Positions 14,175 to 59,011 of a DNA stretch of 64,000 nucleotides are shown here, piece by piece. Made by a program: the position numbers and the translations under genes. The notes beneath the pieces were generated by a model. That model ran no database searches. It saw nothing but the letters and a program-made list of their open reading frames with translations, and had not been told where the DNA came from. This stretch comes from Mesorhizobium sp. PAMC28654. Lineage in GTDB: Bacteria; Pseudomonadota; Alphaproteobacteria; Rhizobiales; Rhizobiaceae. Each line of letters begins with the position of its first letter. Position 1 is the first letter of the stretch. The stretch is from assembly GCF_020616515.1 (NCBI RefSeq), contig NZ_CP085135.1:2728001-2792000 (forward strand), read 5' to 3'.

Positions 14175-14202
14175 GGCCTCTCCCGGCACATTGCCGACAC
14201 CT

Positions 14203-14303
14203 GTACCGCCGCGCGTCCAACCGGGCCGCAAGGGACGCTGCGGCACATCGATTTTTGCGCATGATCCTTTCCGAAATCGATTTCGATTTTCAAGGTCATG
14301 CGC
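14203..14303. repeat. Composite palindromic repeat (two modules)
   Basis: The first module (about 14203-14245) is a diverged copy of the element at 45963-46010, sharing CCGCGCGTCC and GGACGC. The second (14257-14303) is a 47-nt palindrome beginning GCGCATGATC and ending GGTCATGCGC around an AATCGATT centre. The second is a diverged member of the family at 21957, 24844, 41938 and 61400. It fills most of the 157-nt gap before proC. Confidence 0.75.
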
Positions 14304-14331
14304 TAAGGGAAGCCTTCCTTAGGAGGCTTCC

Positions 14332-15147
14332 ATGACGATCAGGCTTGTTCTCGCCGGCTGCGGCAATATGGGTTACGCCATGCTTTCGGGCTGGCTGAAA
14401 TCAGGCAAGCTTGCGCCATCAGCGGTTTTCGTGGTCGAACCCAATGCCGAATTGCGCCACCGGGCCGAAGCGCTGGGCTGTGGCTCCGCCGCCGACGCCG
14501 GCTCCATTCCGGCCGATGCCGTACCGGCCCTTGTGGTCGTCGCCGTGAAGCCTCAGGTGATCCGCGACGTCACGGCGGCATACAAACGTTTTGACGACGG
14601 GCGCACAACCTTCGTCAGCATTGCGGCCGGAACACCGGTCGCCACCTTCGAGGACATCCTTGGCGATCGCGCGCCGATCATGCGGTGCATGCCCAACACG
14701 CCGGCGGCCATCGGCAAGGGCATGATGGTGGTGTTTTCCAACAAGCTGGTTTCGGACGATACGAAGCATTTCGTCGCTGATCTTCTGTCGGCCAGCGGCG
14801 AAGTGACCACTATTGACGACGAGGGCCTGATGGATGCGGTGACGGCGGTGTCCGGATCCGGCCCCGCCTACATCTTCCACTTCATCGAAGCGCTGACAGT
14901 GGCAGCCGAGAAGGCGGGATTGCCGAGCAAGACCGCCAAGCTGCTGGCCATGCAGACGGTCTACGGCGCCGCCTCGCTCGCCGCTGAAAGCCATGAGGAG
15001 CCGGGCCTGCTGCGCCAACAGGTGACCAGCCCCAACGGGACAACGGCGGCGGCGCTGGCGGTGCTGATGGGCGAAGACCGGCTGACGGACCTTCTTACCG
15101 AGGCCGTGGAAGCGGCGCGGCTGCGGTCGATCGAACTAGGCAAATAG
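14332..15147 (+). CDS. proC: Pyrroline-5-carboxylate reductase
   Basis: The 271-residue cytosolic enzyme performs the last step of proline synthesis, reducing pyrroline-5-carboxylate with NAD(P)H. It has the N-terminal Rossmann motif LAGCGNMGYAMLSGW, VAVKPQ, the conserved MRCMPNTPA, and the C-terminal signature region AVSGSGPAYIFHFIEAL and VTSPNGTT. Length is canonical. AGGAGG lies 6 nt before the ATG. It is flanked upstream by a composite repeat and converges on the COG4091-type dehydrogenase with a 20-nt gap. Confidence 0.96.
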   Translation: MTIRLVLAGCGNMGYAMLSGWLKSGKLAPSAVFVVEPNAELRHRAEALGCGSAADAGSIPADAVPALVVVAVKPQVIRDVTAAYKRFDDGRTTFVSIAAGTPVATFEDILGDRAPIMRCMPNTPAAIGKGMMVVFSNKLVSDDTKHFVADLLSASGEVTTIDDEGLMDAVTAVSGSGPAYIFHFIEALTVAAEKAGLPSKTAKLLAMQTVYGAASLAAESHEEPGLLRQQVTSPNGTTAAALAVLMGEDRLTDLLTEAVEAARLRSIELGK

Positions 15148-15167
15148 AGTTTTTCTGGCTCCCGCCC

Positions 15168-16484
15168 TCAGTTCGCCCCATACAGCATCTCGTCCTGTAG
15201 CCGGCGCAGGGCGAACAGTCTCGTCGTCTGGTCGGGCGCTGAATTTTCGGCGGTCAGCAGTTCGCCTTTCTTGACCGCTTTCAGCACCTTGCCGCCCTCC
15301 AGCAGGCCGACGGGCACGGCGCGTTGCGCGCGTGCCTCGCCCACGGTCATGGTCCATGAGCGGTAGCAGGTCTCGCCGATCGCATCGAACGTCTCGCCGG
15401 CGGCCAGATCGCGCTTGGCAACGGCGCAGACCTCGGCCACCGGCTTCGGCAGCGGCACCATGTCCGGCTTGCCGAAAAGCATGATACGCGCCGCCGTCAG
15501 CGGCACTTCCAGTGATGTCAGGTGATAGGGCCGGAAGAGGCTGTAATAGGGACCGTGGCCGATGTGGAGATCGTCCATGCGCTCGATGATGCGCGGATGA
15601 GTCGCCTCGACGATGACGAAGACGCCGGGCGCCACGCCCTTGCCGACGGTGTAGTCGACGACGCCCTTCTTCAAGAGAAGCCCGCCGTCCTCACGTGGGA
15701 TCAACACCTTGGCGAGATCATCGCGATCGGCCTTGGGTCCATGCATGCCGGGAACATCGGGCACCAGCCCGGTGGCGTTGGCGATGGCGCACATCTCGAC
15801 CATGGTCTTCGAGCCATCGACGAACTCGACGAGCATGCGTGGGTTCATGTTGCGGCGTATCGCTTCCGCGCGATAGTCGTCGGGCACGGCGTCGTGATTG
15901 AGCGGGTTGTTCTTGCCCTTGCCAGCCGAGACGATGGTCAGGCCAAGCGCGGAAGCGAACTCGATCAGTTCCATGCAGCTTGACGGCTCGTCACCGGCGC
16001 CGACCGAATAGACGACGCCAAGCCGATCGGCCTGCTGCTTCAGATAACAGCCGATGGTGACGTCGGCTTCGACATTCATCATCACCAGATGCTTGCCGTG
16101 CTCCATCGCCATCAGGTCGAAATCGGCGGCAACACCGGGTTTTCCGGTGGCGTCGATGACGACGTCGATCAACGGGTTGGTCACCAGCATTTCGTTCGAG
16201 GTGATGGCGATCTTTCCGTTTTCGATCGCCTGGGTGACCTTCGATTGCGTGTCGGCCTCGGCTGCCATCGCTTCGTCACCATAGGCGATGCGGATCGCAT
16301 CCCGCGCGGTGTGCGGACGGCGGGTCGAGACGGCGCAGACCGAAATACCCGGCATCAGCATGCCCTGCGTCACCAGATCCGTGCCCATCTCGCCCGAGCC
16401 GATGACGCCGATGCGCACCGGCCGGCCCTCGGCGGCGCGCTTTGCGAGATCGCGGGCAAGCCCGGTCAGGGCGACATTGGTCAT
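15168..16484 (-). CDS. COG4091-type NAD(P)-dependent dehydrogenase with SAF domain
   Basis: The product has 438 residues. The N-terminal half is a homoserine-dehydrogenase-like Rossmann domain (RIGVIGSGEMGTDLV, VVIDATGKPGV), and the middle carries a conserved SAGKGKNNPLN stretch. The C-terminal 90 residues form a SAF (antifreeze/flagellar-type) domain that includes VCAVAKRDLAAGETF. Proteins of this make-up are annotated as predicted homoserine dehydrogenase (COG4091), but the true substrate is not established to my knowledge. It is divergent from the galactitol-family PTS genes with a 381-nt gap. The inference is that it acts on the product of that transporter, for example a sugar-alcohol or sugar-acid phosphate. 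The start at 16484 is the first ATG and is consistent with family length. Confidence 0.8.
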   Translation of the reverse strand: MTNVALTGLARDLAKRAAEGRPVRIGVIGSGEMGTDLVTQGMLMPGISVCAVSTRRPHTARDAIRIAYGDEAMAAEADTQSKVTQAIENGKIAITSNEMLVTNPLIDVVIDATGKPGVAADFDLMAMEHGKHLVMMNVEADVTIGCYLKQQADRLGVVYSVGAGDEPSSCMELIEFASALGLTIVSAGKGKNNPLNHDAVPDDYRAEAIRRNMNPRMLVEFVDGSKTMVEMCAIANATGLVPDVPGMHGPKADRDDLAKVLIPREDGGLLLKKGVVDYTVGKGVAPGVFVIVEATHPRIIERMDDLHIGHGPYYSLFRPYHLTSLEVPLTAARIMLFGKPDMVPLPKPVAEVCAVAKRDLAAGETFDAIGETCYRSWTMTVGEARAQRAVPVGLLEGGKVLKAVKKGELLTAENSAPDQTTRLFALRRLQDEMLYGAN

Positions 16485-16865
16485 GCTGGAACGTCCACTG
16501 CTTCTTGATCCAGGGCCGGATTAGCAGGGATCAGGCCCGGCTTGCCAATGAAACCGGCGGTTGGCGGCAATTTCCAACAAATTCGTTCCGGCAGGCGCGG
16601 TCGTTTGGGTGAGTGTGCCCGCCTAGCGCGGGTCGATTGGCCCAAAGGGATACCAATTGACATTGTTGAGAACAGCAATAATAAAACATTCGTTCGCCAA
16701 CAAAGGCAAATGTTCACCGCTACATCTGAATCGGGGAGCGTTTCGCATCGCGTTGGGTTGGGGAGTGCCTCTGTACCGGAATGGCAACAGAGGCTTTGGT
16801 TGAAATCAACGGAGCATCGTTGTGAGGCATCGAGCCGATAACTCGATGCTCCAGGGGGAGGAAGA
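16485..16865. other. Divergent intergenic region between the COG4091 gene and gatC
   Basis: This 381-nt stretch has no convincing gene. It holds the gatC promoter candidate at 16657-16684. Just past it is a short inverted repeat, AACATT (16685-16690) and AATGTT (16709-16714), that could be an operator. A GGGGAGGAAG ribosome site precedes gatC. No regulator gene lies next to the operon in this window. Confidence 0.6.
16657..16684 (+). promoter_or_regulatory. Sigma70-type promoter candidate for the gat operon
   Basis: TTGACA (16657-16662), a 16-nt spacer and TAATAA (16679-16684) form a near-consensus housekeeping promoter 181 nt before gatC. It stands out in an otherwise GC-rich intergenic region. 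A 6-bp inverted repeat begins directly after the -10. Confidence 0.6.
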
Positions 16866-18272
16866 ATGGACACTATTCTCGCGGGCCTCAAAGGGGCTAT
16901 CGACACGCTTGGCCCGACGATCCTGCTGCCGATCGTCATTTTCATCATCGCCGTGGTTCTGGGCGCCAAGGTCAGCAAGGCTTTCCGCGCCGCCGTCACC
17001 ATCGGCGTCGCCTTCATCGGCATCAATCTGGTGCTTGGTCTCATGTTCACGTCGATCGGCGACGTTGCCAAGGCCATTGTCACCAACACCGGCATCCATC
17101 GTGACATCATCGATGTCGGCTGGCCATCGGCCGCGGCCATCGCTTTCGGCTCGTCGGTTGGCCTGTGGGTCATTCCGGTCGGCATCCTCGTCAACATCGT
17201 GCTTCTGCTGACGCGCATGACCCGCACGCTCAATGTCGACGTCTGGAATTTCTGGCATTTCGCCTTTGTCGGCTCGCTCGTCGTCGCCGCGACCGACAAT
17301 CTGGCCTATGGCATCGCGGTCGCCGCACTTGTCGCCGCGCTGTCGCTGCTCTTCGCCGACTGGTCGGCGCGCGCGGTGCAGCAATTCTATGGCGTGCCCG
17401 GCATTTCCGTGCCGCATCTCGCCTCGGCGCAGATCCTGCCGATCGCCATTGTGCTCAACTGGATCATGGACCGCATTCCGGGGATCAACCGCATCAACAT
17501 CAACACCGATACCATCGAGCGCCGGTTCGGCGTGTTCGGCGAACCTGTCGTGATGGGCCTCATCATCGGCCTCGTACTTGGTGCGATCGCCTTCTACAAT
17601 GCGGGTGATCTCAGCGTGGTGCTGGCCAAGGTGCTGGGCACCGGCATGACACTGGCAGCCGTGATGCTGCTGCTGCCGCGCATGGTGAAGATCCTGATGG
17701 AAGGCCTGCTCCCGGTTTCCGACGCGGCCCAGGCGTTCGTGCGCAAGCGCACCGGCGATCGCGAGCTTCTCGTTGGTCTGGATTCCGCGATCCTGATCGG
17801 CCATCCGGCGGCGATCTCGTCGTCACTGATCCTGGTGCCCATCGCGATCATCCTGTCCATCATACTGCCGGGCAACCGCGTCATCCTGTTCGCCGACCTG
17901 GCGGTCATCCCCTTCATCGTCGCCATGACCGCGCCCTTGGTCAAAGGCAACGTGTTCCGCATGGTGGTGATCGGCACGGTGACACTCGCCATCGGCTTCT
18001 ACGTCGCCAATGCGCTGGCGCCGCTGTTCACCAGCGCCGCCGTCTCATCGGGCTTCAAGCTGCCGGCGGACGCGCTGCAGATCACCTCGGTCGTCGACGG
18101 CTTCCTGTGGGTGCCTTATGTGATCATCGAGGCGATCCAGGGACTTGGGCTCATCGGCATCGTCGTCATGGCGGTGGTCATCGCGGCGCTGTTCGTCCTC
18201 TACCGCCGCAATCCGCTCGGCTGGGAACGGGCCGCTGGTGCGGAGGATGAGCCTGCCGAAGGCAAGGCTTGA
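16866..18272 (+). CDS. gatC: PTS galactitol-family EIIC permease
   Basis: A 468-residue polytopic membrane permease of the PTS Gat family, which imports and phosphorylates a polyol or sugar. Family features are the GPTILLPIVIFIIA start, DVGWPSAAAIAFGS, DVWNFWHFAFVGS and GLDSAILIGHPA. It is followed by its own IIA and IIB genes on the same strand, so a complete IIABC set is present. Sugar-importing PTS permeases are uncommon in rhizobia, which usually have only the nitrogen PTS, so phosphate would have to come from EI and HPr encoded elsewhere. A GGGGAGGAAG site precedes the ATG. The name reflects family; galactitol as substrate is not shown. Confidence 0.9.
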   Translation: MDTILAGLKGAIDTLGPTILLPIVIFIIAVVLGAKVSKAFRAAVTIGVAFIGINLVLGLMFTSIGDVAKAIVTNTGIHRDIIDVGWPSAAAIAFGSSVGLWVIPVGILVNIVLLLTRMTRTLNVDVWNFWHFAFVGSLVVAATDNLAYGIAVAALVAALSLLFADWSARAVQQFYGVPGISVPHLASAQILPIAIVLNWIMDRIPGINRININTDTIERRFGVFGEPVVMGLIIGLVLGAIAFYNAGDLSVVLAKVLGTGMTLAAVMLLLPRMVKILMEGLLPVSDAAQAFVRKRTGDRELLVGLDSAILIGHPAAISSSLILVPIAIILSIILPGNRVILFADLAVIPFIVAMTAPLVKGNVFRMVVIGTVTLAIGFYVANALAPLFTSAAVSSGFKLPADALQITSVVDGFLWVPYVIIEAIQGLGLIGIVVMAVVIAALFVLYRRNPLGWERAAGAEDEPAEGKA

Positions 18273-18300
18273 CCCTCATCGCGCCTTGAATTTGAAGCGA

Positions 18301-18325
18301 TCGTGCGCCCTTCCCGGGCGCACGA
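18301..18325. other. gatC-gatA intercistronic hairpin
   Basis: Perfect 10-bp arms TCGTGCGCCC and GGGCGCACGA flank a 5-nt loop in the 75-nt gap between gatC and gatA. Only a weak T-rich tail (TTCTTA) follows. It may act as an mRNA stability element or partial attenuator that sets the IIC to IIA/IIB ratio. Confidence 0.65.
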
Positions 18326-18347
18326 TTCTTATGGACGGAGCAAAAAC

Positions 18348-18809
18348 ATGTCTGACGGACTCATGCATCTCCTGGACCCGGAAGCGATCGTGCTCGGATC
18401 CGATGCATCGACCAATGAGGAGATCATCCGCATCCTGGCCGGCAGGCTGGAGATGTTGGGCTACGTCAAAAGTTCCTACGCCGACGCGGTCGTGCGTCGC
18501 GAAATGACGATTCCTACCGGCTTGCCCTTGGAGCGTCCCGACAATGTCGCCGTGCCGCATACCGATCCGGAGCATGTGTTGAAGCCGGGGATCGCCATGG
18601 GCACATTGAAGACGCCCGTCACCTTCGCCAACATGGAAGACCCCGACGAGAAGCTGCCGGTAGGCTTCGTGTTCCTCCTTGCCATCAACGACAAGGACAA
18701 GCAGATTGAGGCGCTGCAGACCGTCATGGCCACGATCCAGAACCCCGCCGCGCTCGATGGCCTGAGGACGGCCAGGACGCTTGACGACGTGCGTGCCGTG
18801 CTCGGCTGA
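18348..18809 (+). CDS. gatA: PTS galactitol-family EIIA
   Basis: This 153-residue cytosolic phosphocarrier takes phosphate from HPr and passes it to IIB. The active-site histidine is H71 in NVAVPHTDPEHV, the usual PTS EIIA type-2 motif, and the C-terminal half has KLPVGFVFLLAINDKD. The start at 18348 follows a CGGAG site; an upstream ATG at 18331 is out of frame. It lies 17 nt before gatB and behind the intercistronic hairpin. Confidence 0.9.
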   Translation: MSDGLMHLLDPEAIVLGSDASTNEEIIRILAGRLEMLGYVKSSYADAVVRREMTIPTGLPLERPDNVAVPHTDPEHVLKPGIAMGTLKTPVTFANMEDPDEKLPVGFVFLLAINDKDKQIEALQTVMATIQNPAALDGLRTARTLDDVRAVLG

Positions 18810-18826
18810 AACAAGGAGATTTAGAT

Positions 18827-19114
18827 ATGTCCAGACAGAAAACGATTCTCTTTGCCTGCGGTACCGGCATCGCCACCTCGACGGCCGTCAATGTCGCCGT
18901 CACAGAGGAAATGAAAAAGCGTGGCCTCACCTTCAATGCCCAGCAGGCAAAGGCCACGGAAGTGCCGTCACTGGCTGACAATGTTGACTTCATCGTCGCC
19001 ACCACGCCGATCTCCGCCTCGGTCACAAAACCGGTGATCAAGGGCCTCGCCTTCCTCACCGGCATCGGCAAGGACAAGGTGCTTGACGAGATCGAGGCGC
19101 AACTGCGCAAGTAG
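18827..19114 (+). CDS. gatB: PTS galactitol-family EIIB
   Basis: This 95-residue cytosolic phosphotransfer subunit phosphorylates the incoming sugar on IIC. The phosphocysteine is C11 in LFACGTGIATSTA, the typical IIB-Gat P-loop, and length matches the family. AAGGAG precedes the ATG. It closes the three-gene operon; no kinase, aldolase or further dehydrogenase follows, so downstream metabolism must rely on the divergent COG4091-type enzyme or genes elsewhere. Confidence 0.91.
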   Translation: MSRQKTILFACGTGIATSTAVNVAVTEEMKKRGLTFNAQQAKATEVPSLADNVDFIVATTPISASVTKPVIKGLAFLTGIGKDKVLDEIEAQLRK

Positions 19115-19631
19115 CGGACGCGAGACCGTACCGAGGCTACAGGCCTCGGCAAGCGGGGCTCCGACCCCAGCTATGCGGGAAACAGTCCCAAGGCCGGTCC
19201 ACGCTTGCCAAGAAGCGGGCGAAGATCGGATTGAAGCGATCCGCCGCATCCCTGAACGGCGCATGGCCCGGCTTTTCGAGCAGATGGGTCTTGCCCTTCC
19301 ATGTCCATGGCGGCTTGCTGGACATGTGACAATCCTGTTGACCCTGTTGACGGCAACAAGTGGCGTAGTCGTGAACCGGTTTCGCCAGCGATGCCGCTGT
19401 CAGTCTGTTTGTTTCGGGTGGTTTGACGACTCCGCCGAGATGACCAGCCCTTTTCGCGCTGCCCTCGCCATTCAGGGCATGGGCTTAACCAGGACAAACA
19501 GGCACCACAATACGAACATTGACCGGCGGCCTTCACACGCGGGCACGCATTCGTCGATGAAAAGTCGACGTGGAATGTTCGATCAGTTTCTGTTACCGTT
19601 CCCATTCCAAGGAAGCGGGAGAGGCCTGACC
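19115..19631. other. Gene-poor region downstream of gatB
   Basis: This 517-nt stretch has no intact gene that I can support. It contains a short alpha/beta-hydrolase remnant on the minus strand (19200-19325). Codon structure is lost on both sides of it, which suggests an old deletion or decay site between the PTS operon and the tRNA-Thr/murA backbone. Confidence 0.5.
19200..19325 (-). pseudogene. Remnant of an alpha/beta-hydrolase C-terminus
   Basis: The minus-strand frame reads HLLEKPGHAPFRDAADRFN followed by PIFARFLASV. This matches the end of alpha/beta hydrolases, where the catalytic His sits in a GHAPF motif before the last helix. Nothing recognisable as the nucleophile elbow or the rest of the domain is found upstream on that strand, so this would be a fragment of about 40 residues. 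The match rests on one motif and is tentative. Confidence 0.35.
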
Positions 19632-19751
19632 ATGAAATCCGACGAGACGGAAGACGATAGGACGCAACCTTTTGGTAGCGGCTATATTGTCTTCTTGCTG
19701 GTAATGGGCGCGTTGCTGGCAAGCACCATCTATTTTGAACTTTGGGTTTAG
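19632..19751 (+). CDS. Small single-span membrane protein (39 residues)
   Basis: A 39-residue reading frame with an acidic N-terminus (MKSDETEDDRTQPFGSG), one hydrophobic span (YIVFLLVMGALLASTIYF) and a short tail ending ELWV. A GGGAGAGG site lies about 8 nt upstream. The charge pattern and ribosome site make it look real, but such short frames also occur by chance. The function is unknown, and it stands alone between the PTS operon and tRNA-Thr. Confidence 0.45.
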   Translation: MKSDETEDDRTQPFGSGYIVFLLVMGALLASTIYFELWV

Positions 19752-20000
19752 AGCGACAGTGATTGATTGAATTCTAGCGTGATTTTGGCGACTATTTCTT
19801 GTTTTAGTATTCGCTACACGTAACGTCGGCATCCGCGTTCCCGCGGAATGATCACATTCAAGCTCTCCCGAAGATTGATCGGCATCACCGCGACGCGGGC
19901 TCTCCGACCCACGGGAGAGTTCTTCACGCTGATTGCTCTTAACCCGCGAATGGTAATTGCAAGGGAGCAATATCCGCCAACAATGCCGGTCGTTGGAGAA

Positions 20001-47396: not shown

Positions 47397-47816
47397 TTAT
47401 CTCCTGGCGAGGAGATCGCGAATTTCGGTGAGCAGAGCGACATCAGCTGGTGGCGGAGCAGCCGGGGCAGCAGGCTTCTCGCGCTCAAGCCGCTTACGCA
47501 GATTGTTCACCGCCTTGACCATCAGGAAGATGATGAAGGCGAGAATGACGAAGTTCAGCGCCACGGTGATGAAATTGCCGTAGGCAAAAACGGCGCCTTG
47601 TTTGCGCGCGTCAATCAGGTTGGTGGCAGTCACGTTGTGCGACAGCCCAATGAAGTAGTTGGAAAAGTCGACGCCGCCGAGTGCACCGATGAAGGGCATG
47701 ATGATGTCGTTGACCAGCGAAGTGACGATCGTGCCGAAGGCGGCGCCGATGATGACGGCGACGGCCAAGTCCATCACATTGCCCTTGGAAATGAATTCCT
47801 GGAATTCTTTCAGCAT
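47397..47816 (-). CDS. mscL: Large-conductance mechanosensitive channel
   Basis: A 139-residue pentameric inner-membrane channel that opens on hypo-osmotic shock. It has the TM1 gate region [20 protein letters not shown], a periplasmic loop, TM2 [19 protein letters not shown], and the C-terminal helix ending EIRDLLARR. Length is canonical. It is followed by a strong terminator. Confidence 0.97.
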
Positions 47817-48062: not shown

Positions 48063-51000
48063 GTGCAGGGCTGGTTCATCGTCATCATCGCGATTGCCTA
48101 TGTGACGTTGCTCTTCGTCATCGCCAGCCTGGGCGACCGGCGCTCGGCCATATCGGGGCCAGGCCGGGCCAGGCCCTTCATCTACGCGCTCAGCCTCGCC
48201 ATCTACTGCACCTCCTGGACCTTCTTTGGTTCGGTTGGACTTTCCTCCGAGCGCGGGCTCGAATTCCTGGGCATCTATACCGGCCCGGTGCTGGTCTTCG
48301 TGTTCGGCTTTCCGCTGCTCAACCGCCTCGTGCGGCTGGCAAAATCGGAGAAGATCACGTCGGTCGCCGACTTCCTCGGCGCGCGCTACGGCAAGAGCTT
48401 CAGCGTGGCCGCGATCGCCACACTGATCGCCACCATCGGTGCGGTGCCCTACATCGCGCTACAGTTAAAGGCAATCTCCGGCTCGGTCAGCCTGATGGTC
48501 GAACATTACACCGGCTCGCCCCCGTCCTTCGACCCGTTCGTCAGCGACATATCGCTGGTCGTCGCCATGCTGCTTGCGCTGTTTGCCGTGCTGTTCGGCA
48601 CTCGCCACGCCGACGCCACCGAGCACCAGGACGGGCTGGTGCTGGCGGTAGCGGTCGAGACCGTGGTCAAGCTGGCCGCCTTCCTGGCCATCGGCCTGAT
48701 GGTCACTTTCCTGATCTTCGGCGGCCCAGCCGACATGTTCGCCAAACTCGCGGAAAATACACAGGTCCGCCAGGCGATGGGCTACTCGACGTCGCTTGCA
48801 ACCTGGCTGGTGCTGACGGGCATCAGCGGCTTCGCCATCATCATGCTGCCGCGCCAGTTCTACGTCACCATCGTCGAGAACCGCAGCGAAGCCGAACTGC
48901 GCACCGCGACCTGGGTGTTTCCGCTCTATCTCGTGGCGATCAACCTGTTCGTGCTGCCGATCGCGTTCGCCGGCCTGGCGCTGGTCGGCACCAAGACCAG
49001 CAGCGACCTCTATGTGCTGTCGCTGCCCTTGTTCAACGGCCATGATTTTCTGGCCATGGCAGCCTTCATCGGTGGCCTGTCGGCGGCGACCGCCATGGTG
49101 ATCGTCGAGAGCGTCGCGCTGTCGATCATGATCTCCAACGACCTCGTCATCCCGCTGTTCGTGCGCCGCCTGCTGAAGACCACGACCTCCGAGAACGAGG
49201 ACTGGTCGACGCTGATCCTCAATGTGAGGCGGGCATCCATCTTCATCATGCTGTTCGTCGCCTTCCTCTACTACCGCGAGAGCACCAACAGTGCGCGGCT
49301 CTCGTCGATCGGCCTGATGTCCTTCGCGGCCATCGCCCAGTTCGCTCCGGCCCTGATCGGCGGCTTGATCTGGCGCGGCGCCAACGGCAGGGGCGCGGCG
49401 CTGGGCATGGTCGCCGGCATCCTCGTCTGGGGCTACACGCTGCTCCTGCCTTCGTTCGCCGCGCCCGATGCCGACATCATCATCCATGGCCTGTTCGGCT
49501 TCGATGCCTTGCGGCCGCAGGCACTGTTCGGCACTATCGCGGAGCCGCTGAACCACGGCGTGCTGTGGAGCCTGTCGATCAACATGCTGTTCTTCGTCCT
49601 GGGTTCGCTTTCCCGCGCCTCGGTGCCGCTGGAACGCATACAGGCATCCATCTTCGTGCCACGCGAGGCCGGTCCGATGCCAAGCCTGCGCCGCTTCCGC
49701 ACCGCCATCACCGTCAACGACCTCAAGGACACCATCTCGCGCTATCTCGGCGTCGAACGCACCGAACGCTCCTTTCAGTCTTTCGAAAAGAGCGGTGGCA
49801 CGTCGCTGCACGGCAAGGAGCAGGCGAGCATGGACGTGATCCGCTTCTCCGAGCAATTGCTGGCCAGCGCGGTCGGCTCCTCCTCGGCACGGCTGATCCT
49901 GGAGCTGTTGTTGCGTCGCAATGATCGCGAGTCCAAGGATGCTTTCCGCCTGCTCGATGACGCCACCGAGGCGCTGCAGCACAATCGCGACCTGCTGCAG
50001 ATCGCGCTCGACCAGATGGAACAGGGCATCACCGTTTTCGACCGGGATTTCCGCCTGATCTGCTGGAACCGCCAGTATCGTGCGCTGTTCGACCTGCCCG
50101 ACGAGATGGGCCAGGTCGGCGTCTCGCTCGACCGCATCCTTTATCACCTTGCCGAGCGCGGCGACATTCCAGCGGACCAGCGGGTGGCGATGCTGAACCG
50201 GCTGACCAGCTTCGTCAGTCCCTGGCAGATGGAGCTGAAGACCAGCGGCCGCACCCTGGAGCTGCGCTCCAACCCGATGCCGGACGGCGGCATCGTCGCC
50301 ACCTATGCCGATATTTCCGGGCGCGTCGAACAGGATCTGGCGCTGAAACGCGCGAATGAATCGCTGGAGCAGCGCGTCAAGAACCGCACCATCGAACTCA
50401 CCCGCGTCAATGAGGAACTGGCGCAGGCGCAGATGCTGGCCGAGGAGGCCAATCTGGGCAAGACGCGCTTCCTCGCCGCCGCCGGCCACGACATCCTGCA
50501 ACCCTTGAACGCCGCCCGGCTCTATTGCTCGTCGCTGATCGAGAAGGCCGGCAAGGGAGCCGCCGGAAAGGCCGCGGTCAACATCGAATCGTCACTGGAG
50601 TCGGTGGAGACCATCCTTGGCGCGGTGCTCGACATTTCCCGGCTCGACGCCGGCGCGATGAAGCCTGATGACACCACTTTCAGCCTGGATGGACTGCTCA
50701 GACAGATCGGAAACGACTTCCGGCCGCTTGCCGCCGAGAAGAAACTCGAGCTGACGATCATGACGTCGTCGCTCAGCGTCATCACGGACCGCAACCTGCT
50801 GCGCCGCCTGATCCAGAATCTCGTCTCCAACGCCATCAAGTACACGCGCCACGGCCGGGTTCTGGTGGGTGTGCGGCGGCGTGGCGAGATGGCCGAGATC
50901 CAGGTGATCGACACCGGTATCGGCATCGCCGGCGACAAGCTGAACACAGTCTTTCGCGAATTCACCCGGCTCGACGAAGGCGCGCGCGAGGCCGAGGGCC

Positions 51001-51551
51001 TTGGCCTCGGCCTCTCGATCGTCGACCGCCTCGCCCGGGTGCTGCGCCTTGAAATCCGGATCTTTTCAAATCCGGGCAAGGGCACGCGTTTCTCGGTCAT
51101 CCTGCCGGTCGCGGCCGTGCAGGAGCCGCGCCGCGAGATCGAAGCCAAGGCCCCTGCTCGCACCACCACTTCGCTTGCCGGGCTGCATGTTCTCTGCATC
51201 GACAATGACGCCCGCATCCTCGACGGCATGAGGCTGTTGCTCGAAGGGTGGGGCTGCATCGTCGAAACCACTTCCGGCTCGCACGACCTGAACGGACCGG
51301 CGATGCATCGCCCTGACATCATCCTTGCCGATTATCATCTCGATGGCGAAACCGGCCTCGGCGTCATCCGAAAGCTGCGCGCGGTCCATGGCGAGGACAT
51401 CCCGGCCGTGCTGGTCACCGCCGACCGTTCGAACGAAGTGCGCACCGCCGCCGAAAGGCTCGACGTACCGGTGATCAACAAGCCGCTGAAACCCGCGGCG
51501 CTGCGTTCGATGATGGCGCGCATCAGGCCGCTGGCGCCGGCGGCGGAGTGA
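48063..51551 (+). CDS. Sodium/solute symporter-hybrid histidine kinase (CrbS/MxtR-like)
   Basis: A 1162-residue sensor. About the first 490 residues are an SSS/SLC5 transporter with about 13 spans (TSVADFLGARYGKSFSVAA). A PAS domain near 640-750 follows (LDQMEQGITVFDRDFRLICW), then a HisKA domain with the phospho-histidine near 808 in AAAGHDILQPLNAARLYC, an HATPase domain (NLVSNAIKYT, DTGIGI, GLGLGLSIV) and a C-terminal receiver with the acceptor aspartate near 1091 in ILADYHLDGETG. This matches CrbS/MxtR kinases, which control acetate use with a LuxR-type partner; a related but frameshifted regulator lies at 56258-56916. GTG at 48063 is preferred; TTG at 48012 is possible. Confidence 0.85.
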   Translation: MQGWFIVIIAIAYVTLLFVIASLGDRRSAISGPGRARPFIYALSLAIYCTSWTFFGSVGLSSERGLEFLGIYTGPVLVFVFGFPLLNRLVRLAKSEKITSVADFLGARYGKSFSVAAIATLIATIGAVPYIALQLKAISGSVSLMVEHYTGSPPSFDPFVSDISLVVAMLLALFAVLFGTRHADATEHQDGLVLAVAVETVVKLAAFLAIGLMVTFLIFGGPADMFAKLAENTQVRQAMGYSTSLATWLVLTGISGFAIIMLPRQFYVTIVENRSEAELRTATWVFPLYLVAINLFVLPIAFAGLALVGTKTSSDLYVLSLPLFNGHDFLAMAAFIGGLSAATAMVIVESVALSIMISNDLVIPLFVRRLLKTTTSENEDWSTLILNVRRASIFIMLFVAFLYYRESTNSARLSSIGLMSFAAIAQFAPALIGGLIWRGANGRGAALGMVAGILVWGYTLLLPSFAAPDADIIIHGLFGFDALRPQALFGTIAEPLNHGVLWSLSINMLFFVLGSLSRASVPLERIQASIFVPREAGPMPSLRRFRTAITVNDLKDTISRYLGVERTERSFQSFEKSGGTSLHGKEQASMDVIRFSEQLLASAVGSSSARLILELLLRRNDRESKDAFRLLDDATEALQHNRDLLQIALDQMEQGITVFDRDFRLICWNRQYRALFDLPDEMGQVGVSLDRILYHLAERGDIPADQRVAMLNRLTSFVSPWQMELKTSGRTLELRSNPMPDGGIVATYADISGRVEQDLALKRANESLEQRVKNRTIELTRVNEELAQAQMLAEEANLGKTRFLAAAGHDILQPLNAARLYCSSLIEKAGKGAAGKAAVNIESSLESVETILGAVLDISRLDAGAMKPDDTTFSLDGLLRQIGNDFRPLAAEKKLELTIMTSSLSVITDRNLLRRLIQNLVSNAIKYTRHGRVLVGVRRRGEMAEIQVIDTGIGIAGDKLNTVFREFTRLDEGAREAEGLGLGLSIVDRLARVLRLEIRIFSNPGKGTRFSVILPVAAVQEPRREIEAKAPARTTTSLAGLHVLCIDNDARILDGMRLLLEGWGCIVETTSGSHDLNGPAMHRPDIILADYHLDGETGLGVIRKLRAVHGEDIPAVLVTADRSNEVRTAAERLDVPVINKPLKPAALRSMMARIRPLAPAAE

Positions 51552-51593: not shown

Positions 51594-52229
51594 TCAACCC
51601 CGGTGCCCGAGGCTTCCAAGATAGGCGCAGAACATGTCGGCCATCGCGTCGGCGTGGCTTTCGATCTCCGCAGGTGTTCGGGGGCTTCCCGAAAAATCCC
51701 TTCCCACCGCGCTGAGCGTCATCATGATCAGCTCGCCGGCCAAGGCACGGACAGCTTCCGGAGCCTCAGGCAATGCCTCCCGCAGGAAGGTCTGGACGGT
51801 TCGCTTTCCCGAGGCCCTGGCCTCATGCGCCTCGGGTGCATCGCGATAGAGGGGTGCCGCGTCATTGAGCGCCCCACGCACGGCAGCCTCATCGCATTCC
51901 GAGAGGATGAAGGCATGGACCAACGAACGCAGCCGTTCGAGCGGTGGCTGCCTGGTATCCTCAAGGATGTTGCGCAGCAGGCCGCCCGTCTGCCGCCATT
52001 CATCGCTCTGGAGCCTGAACAGGAGCGCGGCCTTGTTCGGGAAATACTGATAGAGCGAGCCGACACTGACGCCGGCTTTTTCAGCCACGCGCGTGGTGGT
52101 GAAACGCCGCGCGCCTTCGCTCTCCAAAACCTGAACAGCGGCCTCCAAAATCGCGGCGACAAGCTCCGTGGCGCGGGCTTGTTTTGGCTGTTTTCGTGAA
52201 GAAATTGAATGGTTTGGGCGTTCGGCCAC
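51594..52229 (-). CDS. TetR-family transcriptional regulator
   Basis: A 211-residue repressor. The HTH is in FTTTRVAEKAGVSVGSLYQY followed by FPNKAALL; the C-terminal ligand domain is of the TetR_C type (ALNDAAPLYRDAPEAHE). GTG at 52229 is chosen with a GGAAG site; an earlier frame reaches 52304. It is divergent from the O-methyltransferase with a 92-nt gap, so it probably controls that gene and itself. Confidence 0.88.
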   Translation of the reverse strand: MAERPNHSISSRKQPKQARATELVAAILEAAVQVLESEGARRFTTTRVAEKAGVSVGSLYQYFPNKAALLFRLQSDEWRQTGGLLRNILEDTRQPPLERLRSLVHAFILSECDEAAVRGALNDAAPLYRDAPEAHEARASGKRTVQTFLREALPEAPEAVRALAGELIMMTLSAVGRDFSGSPRTPAEIESHADAMADMFCAYLGSLGHRG

Positions 52230-52321
52230 GGCGCGCTTCCGCAATGCGAATTGGAAACCTGAAGGATTATTCGTATTTTGATGGCGACACAAGAACGCAG
52301 TCATTTTCGACAGGAGCCTTC

Positions 52322-52978
52322 ATGACGACGCTCACCAACGCCCCGCTCGCACCTCTGCTCGCTCGCCTGTTCAAAGAGGCGAGCACCGCGACCAGTCCGG
52401 CAATGGCCGCACTCTCGCACGATGAGCGTGCACGCCTGCTGCGGAGCAAGACCGAGTATATCGAAGTCTACGGACAGCTGAAGGATCTCTGGCTCGCGGT
52501 TTCACCGGAGACCGGCACGTTGCTCTACATGCTGGCGCGAAGCAGCGGCGCGCGCATCATCATCGAGTTCGGCACCTCGTTCGGTATTTCGACGCTCTAT
52601 CTTGCCGCGGCATTGCGGGACAATGGCGGCGGCCACCTGATCACCACCGAGTTCGAGCCGTCCAAGGTAATGCGGGCCAAGGCCAACCTGACGGAGGGCG
52701 GCCTCATCGACCTTGTGGAAATCCGAGAGGGAGACGCGCTGCGGACATTGAGCGACGACCTGCCAGAGACAATCGACCTGCTGCTCCTCGACGGCGCCAA
52801 GGCGCTCTATCCGGAGATCCTGAGCCTCGTCGAAAGCCGCCTGCGGCCAGGCGCGTTGGTCATCGCCGACAACGCCGATTTCTCTCCTGAATATCTGGAG
52901 CGCGTGCGCTCGCCGGCATCCGGCTACATGTCCACGCCCTTCGGCGAGGATGTCGAACTGTCCGTACGTCTCGGCTGA
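52322..52978 (+). CDS. SAM-dependent O-methyltransferase (class I)
   Basis: A 218-residue caffeoyl-CoA-OMT-like methyltransferase. The SAM motif I is IIEFGTSFGISTLYLA, motif II TTEFEPSK, and LLLLDGAKALYPEIL carries the metal-type acidic residue; ADNADF follows. The substrate is unknown. ACAGGAG lies 5 nt before the ATG. The divergent TetR gene suggests small-molecule induction. Confidence 0.85.
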   Translation: MTTLTNAPLAPLLARLFKEASTATSPAMAALSHDERARLLRSKTEYIEVYGQLKDLWLAVSPETGTLLYMLARSSGARIIIEFGTSFGISTLYLAAALRDNGGGHLITTEFEPSKVMRAKANLTEGGLIDLVEIREGDALRTLSDDLPETIDLLLLDGAKALYPEILSLVESRLRPGALVIADNADFSPEYLERVRSPASGYMSTPFGEDVELSVRLG

Positions 52979-53220
52979 GGCTGGCGCTGCCCGACTGGAG
53001 CCAGTTGCTCAAATACCCATGTCGCCCCAAGGGCGGCCGTAAGCGTTTACGTCAACCAACGCGATCTCCGGGCCTCGCACACCAGTCGAGGTCCCCATGC
53101 GCAGGTGACGTTCATGATCAATCCACTCTTGTCCTTCTGGCGCGCGATGCCGCGTCCGGCCCTGTTGGCTGCGCACAGCGCATCCCGTCGAACGACGGCC
53201 CACACGCGGAGTGCATGACC

Positions 53221-54405
53221 ATGTCTGAAACCGATCGACCCGACCTTGCCTATCGCCGCGTCGTTGCCCTGACGGCGGCGCTGTTCCTTTCCTATCTCAC
53301 CGTTGCGATGTCGCTTCCGGCGGTGCCAATCCATGTCGTCCAGGGGCTGGGTCTCAGCAACGCGCTGGGCGGACTTGCCGTCGGCATCGCCTTTCTGTCG
53401 ACGATCCTGACGCGTGCCCATGCCGGCGCATTGGCCGACCGGCTCGGCGGCAAGGTCTGCATGCAGCGCGGCTTGATCCTCTATGCGGTGGCAGGACTGA
53501 CCTGCCTGCTGGCGAATTGGCCCGGACTGCCGGTCGAAGGCAGCTATGCCTTGCTGATTGTCGGCCGGCTGGTGCTCGGGCTGGGCGAAAGCCTGGGCAT
53601 GGTGGGAATGATCAACTGGGCCATCGGCCTGATGGGCCATGGCCGGTCTGGCAGGGTAATCTCGCTGGTCGGGATGGGCATGTATGGCGCCTTTGCCGCC
53701 GGCGGGCCGCTGGGCCTGATGGTGCTCGACCGGCTGGGTTTTGCCGGATTGATGGGCGTCTGCACGGCATTGCCATTGCTGGGGCTGATCGCCATTCATC
53801 GGCTTCCGGCCGTGGCGCCTCATGCCGGCCAACGCGAATCCTTCTGGCGCATCGTCGGCCGCATCTGGCGCCCGGGCGCCGCCGTCGGGCTGCAAGGCGT
53901 GGGCTTCGCGGCCCTTGGCGCTTTCTTTTCCCTTTATTTCCTCAGTCGCGGTTGGCCGCATGCCGGGCTCGGCCTGACCTTCTTCGGCGTCGGCTTCGTG
54001 CTGGTCCGGCTGTTTTGTGGCAATCTGCCGGACCGTATCGGCGGAACACCCGTCGCCATCGCCTCGCTGATCGTGGAGGCCTGCGGCCAATATCTGTTGT
54101 GGCTGGCGCCTGGACCATGGCTGGCGTTGACCGGTGCCCTGCTGACCGGGCTTGGCTGCTCGATGGTGTTCCCGGCCATGGGCTCCGAGGTCGTCAAGCG
54201 AGTGCCGCCGCATCTGCGTGGCACCGCGGTGGGCGGCTTCGCCGCCTTCCAGGATCTGGCCTATGGCGCGACGGCGCCCGTGGTCGGGCTGCTCGCGGAT
54301 TCCTCGGGCTATTCCGTGGTGTTCCTCATCGGCGGCCTCGCCGCGACGCTCGGCCTGTGGATGGCTGTATCGGCGCACCGGCAGGCGCGTCCGGCCATCG
54401 CATGA
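53221..54405 (+). CDS. MFS transporter (YfcJ/YhhS-like)
   Basis: A 394-residue 12-span major facilitator. The loop 2-3 motif GALADRLGGKVCMQRG is typical, and RSGRVISLVGMGMYGAFAAG and PDRIGGTPVAIAS repeat it in the second half. The family is close to YfcJ/YhhS-type efflux proteins. ATG at 53221 with GGAG 9 nt upstream is preferred; ATG at 53215 is in frame. It converges on the frameshifted oxidase across two hairpins. The substrate is unknown. Confidence 0.85.
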   Translation: MSETDRPDLAYRRVVALTAALFLSYLTVAMSLPAVPIHVVQGLGLSNALGGLAVGIAFLSTILTRAHAGALADRLGGKVCMQRGLILYAVAGLTCLLANWPGLPVEGSYALLIVGRLVLGLGESLGMVGMINWAIGLMGHGRSGRVISLVGMGMYGAFAAGGPLGLMVLDRLGFAGLMGVCTALPLLGLIAIHRLPAVAPHAGQRESFWRIVGRIWRPGAAVGLQGVGFAALGAFFSLYFLSRGWPHAGLGLTFFGVGFVLVRLFCGNLPDRIGGTPVAIASLIVEACGQYLLWLAPGPWLALTGALLTGLGCSMVFPAMGSEVVKRVPPHLRGTAVGGFAAFQDLAYGATAPVVGLLADSSGYSVVFLIGGLAATLGLWMAVSAHRQARPAIA

Positions 54406-54445
54406 CGCCGGTCGTCGTACCGTTGCTTTCGGTTGACCGTCATCG

Positions 54446-54530
54446 CCTCTCGTTGGGCAAACACAGCGAGAGGACGCGCCGAGCGCCAATATCCCGTGCG
54501 GGCAATTGATATCGAAGGCACCCGCACGGG
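54446..54530. terminator. Double hairpin between convergent MFS and FAD-oxidase genes
   Basis: CCTCTCG...CGAGAGG (54446-54473, 14-nt loop) and CCCGTGCGGG...CCCGCACGGG (54493-54530, perfect 10-bp arms, 18-nt loop). The second ends 9 nt before the stop of the minus-strand oxidase. Together they probably end both transcripts. There are no U tracts. Confidence 0.55.
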
Positions 54531-54539
54531 TTGCACGCC

Positions 54540-55980
54540 TCAAGCGGCGCGCTGGCCCTCCTTCGGCCGCAGATTCTGGTTCATGCGGAACAGATTCAGC
54601 GGGTCGTAGCGCTGCTTGATTTCCACTAGCCGCCGATAGTTGCCGCCATAGGCGGCTTCAACCCGGCCGGCCTCGTCTTCAGGCATGAAGTTCACGTAAA
54701 CCGTGCCGGCGGCATAAGGCTTGACCGCTTCATAAAGGCCGCGAGCCCAGTCGATGCATGCTTTGTCCATTGCCGGTTCGCGCCAGCGGGCGTGAACGTT
54801 CATGACGAAATGCGAGTTGCGCTGTGGAAACAGCCGTCGCATCCGCCTTGATGCGACCCGCCGCGCCACCGACATGGCCGATGAATATCTCGCATTCGGG
54901 GCCGGGAAGCTTGGCTATTGCCGCCGTGATGGCCGCAGCCGCATTGTCTGAAAACTCGGTGAGATCATGGCTCTTCCAGTAGTTGCGAGCGCCCGGCGCA
55001 AGCAGCGGGTCGAAGGCCTGCTGCCAGCCGGTGAACGGGTTGGGGCCAACGACGTCGGCAATCGGCGTGCCGATGGCGCGAAGCTTCTGCGTCGCCTTTT
55101 CCCCCGCCTGGATGTCGCCGCAATAGCACATGGCCAGCACCAGCACCTCCTTGCCATGCCATTCGGTCGGCAGGAACGGCAGCGGTGGCGCCTGCCGCAT
55201 GACGACCCAACAGGTCAGTTCGTCAGGCGCGGCTTCGAGCGCCTTGCGATATTCCCACAGCACCTTCTCGGCGTCGGCGAAGGGATGGACGACCAGCCCC
55301 GACAGAACCTGCGGGCCCATCTGGTGGAGTTTGAACTCGAACGCGGTGACGATGCCGAAATTGCCGCCGCCGCCGCGCAGCGCCCAGAACAGATCGGGAT
55401 TTTCGGTCTGGCTGGCGCGCAGCAATTTGCCGTCGGCGGTGACCACATCGGCGGAGACAAGATTGTCGATGGTCAGGCCGAATTTCCGGGTGATCCAGCC
55501 GAAGCCGCCGCCCAGCGTCAATCCTGATATGCCGGTGGTCGAGTTGATGCCGGTTGGCACCGCCAGACCGAAGGCCTGCGTTTCCTTGTCGACATCGGCA
55601 AGTGTCGCGCCGGGCCCGACCCATGCGCGCTGTGCCTCCACGTCGACCCGCACCGACTTCATCGGCGACAGATCGATCATCATGCCGCCATCGCAGACGG
55701 CGCTGCCGGCAATGTTGTGGCCGCCGCCGCGCACCGCGACGAGAAGCCTGTTTTCCCTTGCAAAATTCACGGCGTTGATCACGTCGGAAGCGCCGGAGCA
55801 GCGCACGATCAGCCCAGGCCGCCGATCAATGGTGGCATTCCAGACGGTGCGTGCGTCGTCGTAAGCTGTATCGCCCTCCTGAAGCAGTGTGCCGCGCAAC
55901 TGCGCCGCAAGCGCTTCCAAGGCTGCGGCATTGACTTTCGTCTTGCCACGTTCAAGCGTTGTGAGGCTCATGGTATTCAT
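54540..55980 (-). pseudogene. FAD-linked oxidase (berberine-bridge type), frameshifted
   Basis: A family-length oxidoreductase split into two frames. Frame one (from 55980) has the FAD-binding region with the histidyl-flavin motif GGGHNIAG, GGGFGWITRKFGLTIDNLVS and WALRGGGGNFGIVT, and stays collinear to IKADATA. Frame two resumes with PQRNSHFVMNVHARW and ends with the BBE domain NYRRLVEIKQRYDPLNLF then RMNQN. The break is at an AAA run (54828-54830): removing one A restores TAVPQRNSHF, which fits the family. It is either a sequencing error or a recent inactivation. The substrate is unknown. Confidence 0.85.
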
Positions 55981-56257: not shown

Positions 56258-56916
56258 TCAGTTCACTGGCTGTAGCGGGTCGCCGCCGATCTTGGCCAGC
56301 TGGATCACCGCCTGGGTGCGGCTGTCGACACCGAGCTTCTGCAGGATGGCGGAGACATGCGCCTTGATGGTCGCCTCGGAGACGCCGAGCTCATAGGCGA
56401 TCTGCTTGTTGAGCAGGCCTTCCGCCAGCATGCCGAGCACACGGGTCTGCTGCGGCGTCAGTGCCTGCAGCCGCTTGATCAGATCGGAAATCTCGGGATC
56501 GCGCTCCACGCCGAGATCGATGCCGATGGGCGCGGCGATATCGCCGGCCAAACCGACTGCACGGCGTTGCGAATCTCTTCCATGCTGGCCGATTTGGAGA
56601 TGAATCCGGAGGCGCCTAGATCGAGCGCGCGCCGGATCGTCACCGGATCATCATGCGCCGACACCACCACCATCGGCACAGCCGGGTGGATGCCGCGCAG
56701 CGAGATCAGGCCGGACAGGCCGCTTGCTCCCGGCATGGACAGGTCGAGCAGCACCAGATCGACATCCTCATTGGCGACGACCAGAGCCTTGGCGCTTTCG
56801 AAATCGCCGGCCTCGTGGATGGCGGCAACATTGCCGATGCCGGCAAGCGCCTCCCTCAGCGCGCCGCGAAACAGCGGATGGTCGTCGGCGATGACGAAAG
56901 TGTAGCCCGACGGCAA
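56258..56916 (-). pseudogene. LuxR-family response regulator (CrbR/ErdR-like), frameshifted
   Basis: The receiver domain (from 56916) has IADDHPLFRGALREAL, the acceptor Asp in LVLLDLSMPGASGL and the lysine in SGFISKSASMEEI. The frame then breaks, and the NarL/LuxR HTH is read in another frame (LTPQQTRVLGMLAEGLLNKQ and IAYELGVSEATIKAHVSAIL). The break is at an AAA run (56550-56552); one more A restores QSVLAGDIAA. The parts together match the CrbR/ErdR regulators that partner SSS-type kinases like the one at 48063-51551. Confidence 0.85.
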
Positions 56917-57039
56917 ATGCTCCTCCCCGAATCCCCTGATGATTTTATGTTTTTACGGGACCAGTCGGATTATGCGGCGATGCATCCTGTTTTCAAGCGG
57001 CAAAGACAGCTTCGCGGGTTTTCCCCAGGCGCTTGTCAT

Positions 57040-57477
57040 TCAAGTCTTTTGCGAATTGAGCTTGGCGCCGTCGCCGCCACTATCCTTGTTCATATCCTTG
57101 ACGATCCCCATGAAGCCGCGCACGAAACGCTCCATGTAGCTCATCGTCTTGTTGAAATCCTCCTCGCTGGGCAGGTTCGATTCCAGACGGGCGGACAGCG
57201 AATTCTCAAGCTTGGTGACGCGCTCGTCCATCGCCTTCATCGACGTCTGGAGACGGTCGATCTCGTCCTGGTAGGCAGCACGTTCGTCCGCCGCCACTTT
57301 GCATACCAACTGGCCGGAGTGCTCCTCGCAGATCGACATCGCACCGGTCTGCGTATCCATGCGCACATAACCGTTGGTCGATTTTTCGAGACGGTAGCGA
57401 TCGGTTTCCTCAGAATACGCTGATGCCGCGACAAGTGAGACAAGAGCGGCGGGGATCAAGACGTGCTGCAGACGCAT
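57040..57477 (-). CDS. Exported coiled-coil hypothetical protein
   Basis: A 145-residue protein with a signal peptide (MRLQHVLIPAALVSLVAASA). A short beta-rich part has a Cys pair (SICEEHSGQLVC), probably a disulfide. Then comes a heptad-rich helix (DEIDRLQTSMKAMDERVTKL) and a FVRGFMGIVKDMNKDSGGDG tail. GGAGG lies 5 nt before the ATG at 57477. No named family is recognised. It lies downstream of the DUF952 promoter region and is divergent from it. Confidence 0.72.
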   Translation of the reverse strand: MRLQHVLIPAALVSLVAASAYSEETDRYRLEKSTNGYVRMDTQTGAMSICEEHSGQLVCKVAADERAAYQDEIDRLQTSMKAMDERVTKLENSLSARLESNLPSEEDFNKTMSYMERFVRGFMGIVKDMNKDSGGDGAKLNSQKT

Positions 57478-57587
57478 AGTGTCCTCCATGAGCCAGTAGG
57501 AGTAACCTACCACATCTTTGCGCCGGAAATGGGGAAGACCCCTGGCGCGGCCTTCCCCGCGTGGCTGGTTCGGACTATAGCGCAGCC

Positions 57588-57938
57588 ATGTCTCAGATTA
57601 TTTACAAGATAACTCCCGAAGCACTGTGGCGTGATGCGGAAGCAAATGGCCGCTTTACCGGCGCACCGATCGACGTGGCGGATGGATTCATCCATTTCTC
57701 CACAGCGGAGCAGGTCAAGGAAACAGCGGCAAAGCACTTCACCGGTCAGACCGGTCTGCTATTGGTTGCCATTGACGGCGCCAGCCTTGGCGATCCGCTG
57801 AAATACGAGGTCTCGCGCGGCGGTGCCTTGTTCCCGCATCTCTATGGTCCGCTCGACGTCAAGACCGTGCTGTGGGTCCGACCATTGCCGCTGGGCGCCG
57901 ACGGCGCCCACCAGTTTCCGGCGCTGGAGGCCAGATGA
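57588..57938 (+). CDS. DUF952 family protein
   Basis: A 116-residue soluble protein of the DUF952 family. It has IIYKITPEALWRDAEANGRF, ADGFIHFSTAEQVKETAAKH and FPHLYGPLDVKTVLWVRPL, a common alphaproteobacterial pattern, and no established function. The stop overlaps the pyrD start as ATGA, so the two are translated together, as in many Rhizobiales. Confidence 0.9.
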   Translation: MSQIIYKITPEALWRDAEANGRFTGAPIDVADGFIHFSTAEQVKETAAKHFTGQTGLLLVAIDGASLGDPLKYEVSRGGALFPHLYGPLDVKTVLWVRPLPLGADGAHQFPALEAR

Positions 57939-59011
57939 GCGTGCTCGACCGGCTCGGCCAGAAACTGCTGTTCACATTCGATCCGGAAACCGCGCATGGC
58001 ATGTCGATCGCAGCGTTGCGATGCGGCCTGCCGGTCGGCGCGCGGACAGTGCGCGATGCCCGACTGAAGATGACGGTCTGCGGCATCGATTTTCCCAATC
58101 CGCTCGGCATGGCCGCCGGCTACGACAAGAACGCCGAAGTGCCCGACGCCCTGCTTGGCCTTGGCTTCGGCTTCGCCGAGGTAGGCACTATCACGCCACT
58201 GCCGCAGGCCGGCAACCCGAAGCCGCGCATTTTCCGGCTGACGGCGGATGAGGCGGTGATCAACCGCCTGGGCTTCAACAATGAAGGCCATGCGGCCGCT
58301 GAAAAGCGTCTCGCTGCCCGCAAGGGGCGTAGCGGCATCGTTGGCGTCAACATCGGCGCCAACAAGGACAGCACTGATCGCATCGGCGACTATGAACGCG
58401 GCGTCGCCAGGTTCGCGCAATATGCCACCTACCTGACGGTCAACATCTCTTCGCCCAACACGCCGGGCCTGCGCAACATGCAGGCGCGCGAGCAGCTTGA
58501 CGAACTCCTGTCGCGTGTCATGGCCGCGCGCGCGGCTGCGTCGACGCAGCCACCGATCTTCCTCAAGATCGCGCCGGACCTGGTCGAGGCGGAACTGGAA
58601 GATATTGCCGCCGAGGTCACTGAAAAGCGGATCGACGGCGTCATCGTCTCCAACACAACCATTGCGCGGCCATCGCTGCGCAGCGGCGATGTTGCGCGCG
58701 AGACCGGCGGGCTTTCAGGAAAGCCGCTCTTCGAACGCTCGACGATCGTGCTCGCAAGGATGCGGAAGCTGCTTGGCCCGGAGCGTGCCATCATCGGCGT
58801 CGGCGGCGTCGATTCCACCGAGACGGCGCTGGAAAAAATCCGCGCCGGCGCCGATCTCGTCCAGCTCTACACCAGCATGATCTATGCCGGACCGGCGCTG
58901 CCGGGTCGCATTGTCGCCGGAATGGCTGGCTTCGCGGACAAGCAGCCGCTCAAGTCGCTGCGGGAATTGCGCGATGCCAGCCTCGACAAATGGGCGTCCA
59001 AGCCGCTTTAA
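57935..59011 (+). CDS. pyrD: Dihydroorotate dehydrogenase (quinone), class 2
   Basis: A 358-residue membrane-associated flavoenzyme of pyrimidine synthesis that passes electrons to quinone. The N-terminal amphipathic helix region (LDRLGQKLLFTFDPETAHG), the FMN-binding NPLGMAAGYDKN, the catalytic serine in LTVNISSPNTPGLRN and VGGVDSTETALEKIRAGADL identify class 2. ATG at 57935 overlaps the DUF952 stop. It converges on the MATE gene with a 4-nt gap. Confidence 0.97.
   Translation: MSVLDRLGQKLLFTFDPETAHGMSIAALRCGLPVGARTVRDARLKMTVCGIDFPNPLGMAAGYDKNAEVPDALLGLGFGFAEVGTITPLPQAGNPKPRIFRLTADEAVINRLGFNNEGHAAAEKRLAARKGRSGIVGVNIGANKDSTDRIGDYERGVARFAQYATYLTVNISSPNTPGLRNMQAREQLDELLSRVMAARAAASTQPPIFLKIAPDLVEAELEDIAAEVTEKRIDGVIVSNTTIARPSLRSGDVARETGGLSGKPLFERSTIVLARMRKLLGPERAIIGVGGVDSTETALEKIRAGADLVQLYTSMIYAGPALPGRIVAGMAGFADKQPLKSLRELRDASLDKWASKPL

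Follow-up and report, generated by a model that had tools for sequence, protein, structure and literature searches.

In Sinorhizobium fredii NGR234, crbS and crbR are adjacent and convergent, with mscL named in the figure legend for the locus, and deletion of either crbS or crbR abolishes growth on acetate (PMC9100948). A second S. fredii system, RpuS/RpuR, responds to pyruvate and is encoded in a predicted operon beside mctP; CrbS/R and RpuS/R showed no substantial crosstalk (PMC9100948). The CrbS/CrbR type is also described from Pseudomonas and Vibrio as MxtR/ErdR (PMC5715377, PMC5436829, PMC12997753). Here we analyze a locus in a 64,000-nt stretch of Mesorhizobium sp. PAMC28654, whose genome is a single contig of 6,701,426 bases (contig NZ_CP085135.1, positions 2,728,001 to 2,792,000; hereafter the window, in whose coordinates positions are given), where a symporter-like hybrid histidine kinase lies near a LuxR-type response regulator that occupies two reading frames. 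We read the pair as rhizobial CrbS/CrbR, expected to activate the acetyl-CoA synthetase gene acs, with the regulator split in this assembly, at a probability of roughly 0.85. The system is of a known kind and the switch itself is ordinary.

Identity of the kinase–regulator pair

The kinase frame is open to 51551 from either 48063 or, at its longest, 48012. Pfam reports PAS_7, HisKA, HATPase_c and Response_reg matches, and residues 6–466 match the solved chain 10ed_A, named 'histidine kinase'. The preliminary description, a note made from the letters of the window, had called this protein a symporter kinase. Its account of a whole hybrid kinase stood, and the 10ed_A match covers the N-terminal part, but no symporter family was among the Pfam matches reported for it. 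No STAC domain appeared in the Pfam scan of the kinase, although no search aimed at STAC was made. Coverage between this kinase and the symporter kinase of pNGR234b is 99%, and 17 of the 18 top listed kinase relatives are named Mesorhizobium (89–92% identity). The genome has only one such kinase, with no whole-length match elsewhere.

The regulator, on the minus strand, consists of two overlapping open reading frames (ORFs), one carrying a receiver (Response_reg, 82.0 bits, residues 8–120) and the other a LuxR-type helix-turn-helix (HTH) domain (GerE, 72.2 bits, residues 30–83), which bears out the earlier claim of a receiver-plus-HTH regulator in two frames. For both pieces the best NCBIfam model is NF041830 (RR_TF_ErdR), of which they match complementary parts (model positions 2–121 and 146–208). 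The protein of an intact relative aligns to the window with residues 1–123 in one frame and 123–219 in the other.

As sequence references for the convergent locus we used S. meliloti and Sinorhizobium sp. M103, standing in for NGR234 crbS/crbR, and we took the pNGR234b kinase, whose record carries no annotation, to be RpuS. The window kinase is 54–55% identical to the convergent-locus kinases and 41% identical to the pNGR234b kinase; its regulator pieces are 63% and 74% identical to the convergent-locus regulator, compared with 41% and 50% to the regulator beside the pNGR234b kinase. We place the pair with rhizobial CrbS/CrbR because of these identities, the convergent gene order and the presence of a single whole-length kinase in the genome. 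An RpuS/RpuR pair responding to pyruvate would have the same kinase domains, and RpuR is likewise LuxR-type (PMC9100948), but the window genes are convergent and both the kinase and the regulator pieces are the less similar to the pNGR234b proteins. We rejected this identity as very improbable.

The partnership was examined at the loci of the best 80 of 564 kinase relatives, in other genomes. At 75 of the 80 kinase loci the regulator lies 3′ of the kinase in convergent orientation, less than 1 kb away in 59 and 1.1–5.4 kb away in 16, and in all 75 a single frame stays open for 180 residues or more. Among the remaining five loci, two are on contigs that end less than 340 bases from the kinase, two have no regulator in the 4.5 and 8.8 kb of sequence available, and in one the regulator lies on the opposite side of the kinase. 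That the regulator is the partner of the kinase, as first proposed from the window, is thus well supported by these sequence comparisons. Pairing with a different kinase, previously named as counter-evidence, was not seen in the 80 kinase loci; regulator-only loci were not searched separately.

The gene order aminotransferase, kinase, regulator, small protein, DUF952, pyrD is kept in S. meliloti, where mscL is unannotated in the record and was detected by comparison. The proposed match to the CrbS/CrbR architecture holds for domains, convergent order and flanking genes. The regulator had been placed about 5 kb from the kinase; it is nearby and convergent, and the gap is corrected to 4.7 kb. 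In at least eight relatives, too, TetR- and methyltransferase-like genes separate the kinase from the regulator, so we regard the gap as an insert and not as a sign that the two genes are unrelated (Table 1).

Table 1. Features of the locus, in window coordinates
Feature	Position	Strand	Basis
mscL, conserved neighbour upstream of kinase	47397..47816	-	Pfam, locus comparison
CrbS-type hybrid histidine kinase, whole: symporter-like N-terminal part, PAS, HisKA, HATPase, receiver	48063..51551	+	Pfam, NCBIfam, structure-chain match
Insert between kinase and regulator: TetR regulator, methyltransferase-like gene, major facilitator superfamily (MFS)-like gene, FAD (flavin adenine dinucleotide)-linked oxidase	51594..55980	.	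Profiles; methyltransferase and MFS names from translations
CrbR-type regulator, 3′ piece: LuxR-type HTH in other frame	56258..56551	-	ORF, Pfam/NCBIfam
CrbR-type regulator, 5′ piece: receiver, then about 22 shifted-frame residues to stop	56479..56916	-	ORF, Pfam/NCBIfam
Frame-change junction, one base shorter than in 29/29 aligned relatives	56548..56556	-	Alignment
Sigma-70-like promoter match upstream of regulator	56969..56996	-	Consensus match only; 1 found vs 0.2 expected in shuffles
Conserved regulator-side flank: small protein (-), DUF952 protein (+), pyrD-like gene (+)	57040..59011	.	Locus comparison

The space between kinase and regulator varies among Mesorhizobium, which have nothing there, a TetR gene with a methyltransferase gene, or more, as in the window (51594–55980). 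Elsewhere in the window, positions 1–20000 gave no alignment longer than 1 kb to stretches from the comparison genomes G088, G063 and G108; this part may be strain-specific or may lie beyond those stretches.

The candidate acs target

In the proposed mechanism, the symporter-like hybrid kinase would phosphorylate the neighbouring receiver-HTH regulator, which would then switch on acs for growth on acetate. Acetate as both trigger and target in this species is presumed by analogy with the described systems; no paper joining crbR, Mesorhizobium and acetate was found in the literature library searched. The genome has an acs gene at G000:C1:4363944 (1043.5 bits) and a second at 751086 (972.7 bits), also over the cut-off for acs.

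Upstream of the first acs lies a block (L220:1319–1366) with the core GTCTAATRTTG, a candidate CrbR site. All 27 aligned genus genomes keep the core; these 27 loci come from 29 other genomes in which a match was found, and one genome had no match. With up to three mismatches allowed, the block matches this genome once. Four ACTU sites of Pseudomonas fluorescens are printed in an earlier study (PMC5715377) and were the source of our scoring matrix. When 300 bases upstream of acs are scored with this matrix, the best match lies in the conserved block (10.7 bits, with 8 of 127,968 window positions scoring as high, or 0.036 expected by chance), and it stays on top when the P. fluorescens acs site is dropped from the matrix.

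We also searched for the block at up to three mismatches across the family, and matched 35 of 199 genomes. The backward control matched 27, so this tally says little alone. Among 30 loci inspected, 17 keep the core, all of them just upstream of acs and in several genera; no acs lies close to the remaining 13. Eight further matches lie outside the inspected loci, one of which also keeps the core. The ACTU match falls in the same register in all 17 loci with the core, which are related sequences and not independent trials. Within the window, the 15-base core has three matches at three mismatches, in line with chance (mean, 1.56). These comparisons suggest that the acs block may be a CrbR binding site, which would make it a concrete candidate for such a site outside Gammaproteobacteria; a literature search on 'ACTU motif' returned, by title, Pseudomonas work only.

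Several observations weigh against reading the pair as an acetate switch of the CrbS/CrbR type. The regulator pieces score 122.7 and 88.1 bits with NF041830, whose cut-off of 390 bits is reached neither by them nor by any of 60 intact relatives (best, 233.8); by that cut-off the pair is not ErdR, and nor is any of the 60. The acetate role of the pair in Mesorhizobium is carried over by analogy from S. fredii. Because a second acs also scores over the acs cut-off, the strain could use acetate independently of CrbR. Further, only the right half of the acs block resembles ACTU, and the 300 bases before the second acs hold an 8.8-bit ACTU match at an unrelated sequence.

The frame change in the regulator gene

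Across the junction the spacing is 8 bases in this genome and 9 in all 29 of the nearest other genomes, which we aligned there. A one-base loss from a run of four A had been proposed at this site. The one-base difference stood, but a four-A run occurs in none of the 29 aligned relatives and no run at the junction is longer than three. The comparison does not indicate a simple slip in an A-run, and we rejected it.

We surveyed ErdR-type genes in 60 other genomes of the genus plus this one. A full-length match without a stop (216–234 bits) is present in 60/60, whereas this genome has two halves; regulator DNA was matched in 146 of 146 genus genomes, this one included. The regulator is thus in one frame in the relatives, both the 29 aligned and the 60 surveyed, which answers a check suggested in the preliminary description. 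Since a whole copy is present in all 60 other genomes, we file the locus as a broken copy of the rhizobial CrbS/CrbR family in this assembly. As far as examined by sequence comparison, the frame change is particular to this genome.

Neither side of the break shows an excess of nonsynonymous differences relative to the 29 relatives. The receiver piece differs from them by a mean of 26.3 synonymous and 5.5 nonsynonymous codons (22.9 and 6.3 among the relatives themselves), and the HTH piece by 18.8 and 6.9 (17.4 and 5.8). With no decay elsewhere in the gene, the break would be either very recent or not present in the cell.

Between a recent mutation and a sequencing error the balance appears about even. 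A sequencing or assembly error in a strain with a whole CrbS/CrbR pair would bear on nothing but the break and does not conflict with the CrbS/CrbR identity; we give it a shade under an even chance. It would fit the lack of decay beside the break and the presence of the break in none of the 60 other genus genomes examined. Also in favour of an error, a FAD-linked oxidase gene 1.7 kb away is split too, although its two parts match a single frame in G088 at 96% and 100% identity. We compared 344 kb with G088 to count candidate frame changes, using a codon-composition filter against start-site and shadow-frame artefacts, although start-site cases remain. By this count candidate frame changes are little commoner than in G088 (10/212 genes vs 6/208), several of them being start-site artefacts, which speaks against an error without deciding how reliable the assembly is. 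The sizes of the six internal changes are also mixed (1, 2 and 5 bases among them); as no junction run exceeds three either, the pattern is unlike homopolymer miscounting. Should the frame change prove to be an error, it calls for an annotation fix only.

The split oxidase is an observation in its own right. It spans 54540–55980 on the minus strand, with the FAD-binding part in 54730–55980 and the BBE domain in another frame at 54540–54875; G088 has it in a single frame.

Programmed frameshifting, or separate translation, could in principle yield a complete regulator or a functional HTH piece. The HTH piece does begin with TTG at the junction, but nothing else was found for this explanation; none of the 29 relatives requires it, and neither a classical slippery heptamer nor a ribosome site is seen by eye at the junction. 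We consider it highly improbable and rejected it on the single frame of the relatives and the missing heptamer.

A search with the HTH piece for other split copies (best 120 of 2038 matches, 12 inspected) showed that HTH-only entries exist. They decide nothing, since most read through into a receiver or start internally. Two metagenome receiver-only proteins, P0050 and P0095 (one contig each), depart from the frame near the same linker residue, as judged by eye; they are two among nine related proteins inspected, from the 120 listed. The idea that the receiver-HTH linker of crbR is an insertion–deletion hot spot, with repeated recent loss of the acetate switch in rhizobia and relatives, is very doubtful.

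Consequences of the split and comparison with described systems

Since the split falls in the receiver–HTH linker, the gene can yield a receiver without a DNA-binding domain. Such a product would probably amount to a loss of CrbR function, and acs would lose its specific activator if the break is real. The earlier picture of an intact sensor with a dead output holds for the assembly as printed; for the cell it would hold only if the break is real.

The kinase had alternatively been suggested to signal to another regulator. The intact CrbR paralogue sought in the genome exists as one strong match, a second ErdR-type regulator (G000:C1:219633–220253, 210 bits; next match, 73.5). It belongs to a NosP/NahK-type module (G000:C1:219309–224524; L218:9309–14524), possibly a nitric-oxide module in a rhizobium. 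The module comprises this regulator, a NahK/ErcS-family hybrid kinase and a FIST protein. NosP is the one NCBIfam model that the FIST protein matches, at 385 bits against a cut-off of 450. The module adjoins a [2Fe-2S] protein, which we take to be the small subunit of a carbon monoxide (CO)-dehydrogenase-like enzyme.

If the break is real, the window kinase might now work through this paralogue. Both kinases match the NahK/ErcS family in their C-terminal part (402.6 and 417.7 bits) and are 43% identical, and both regulators are ErdR-like; cross-talk is possible because of the shared kinase family. Against this route, the paralogue adjoins a NahK/ErcS-type kinase and a FIST gene and so has a likely partner of its own. 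A second ErdR-type gene (203–215 bits) also occurs in 54 of the 60 other genus genomes, which keep it beside an intact CrbR-type one, so the paralogue did not arise here as a substitute. The absence of substantial crosstalk between CrbS/R and RpuS/R in S. fredii (PMC9100948) points the same way. We regard re-routing as possible but unlikely, and not as the default; with a real break, loss of the acs activator is the more likely outcome.

If CrbR has been lost naturally in a Mesorhizobium, the strain would offer a ready-made experiment on how acetate control affects symbiosis. It would be of interest because a crbS deletion mutant of S. fredii nodulates about 7 days late and with the number of nodules about halved (PMC9100948).

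The window pair can be compared with four systems. The NosP/NahK-type module shares the C-terminal kinase family and an ErdR-like regulator, but its 446-residue kinase has no symporter part and a FIST protein adjoins it. RpuS/RpuR of S. fredii has the same kinase and regulator domains (PMC9100948); it is, however, a predicted operon beside mctP where the window genes are convergent, and kinase identity is about 41%. MxtR/ErdR (CrbS/CrbR) of Pseudomonas and Vibrio agrees in domain make-up, with ErdR the best model for both regulator pieces (PMC5715377, PMC5436829, PMC12997753). The window pieces nevertheless score far below the NF041830 cut-off, as intact rhizobial genes do, and the agreement of the acs site with ACTU is confined to one half. 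CrbS/CrbR of S. fredii, from which the acetate role is known, differs in that the window has the 4.7-kb insert and a regulator in two frames; in both, a symporter-like hybrid kinase and a LuxR-type regulator are neighbours in convergent orientation with mscL beside them (PMC9100948).
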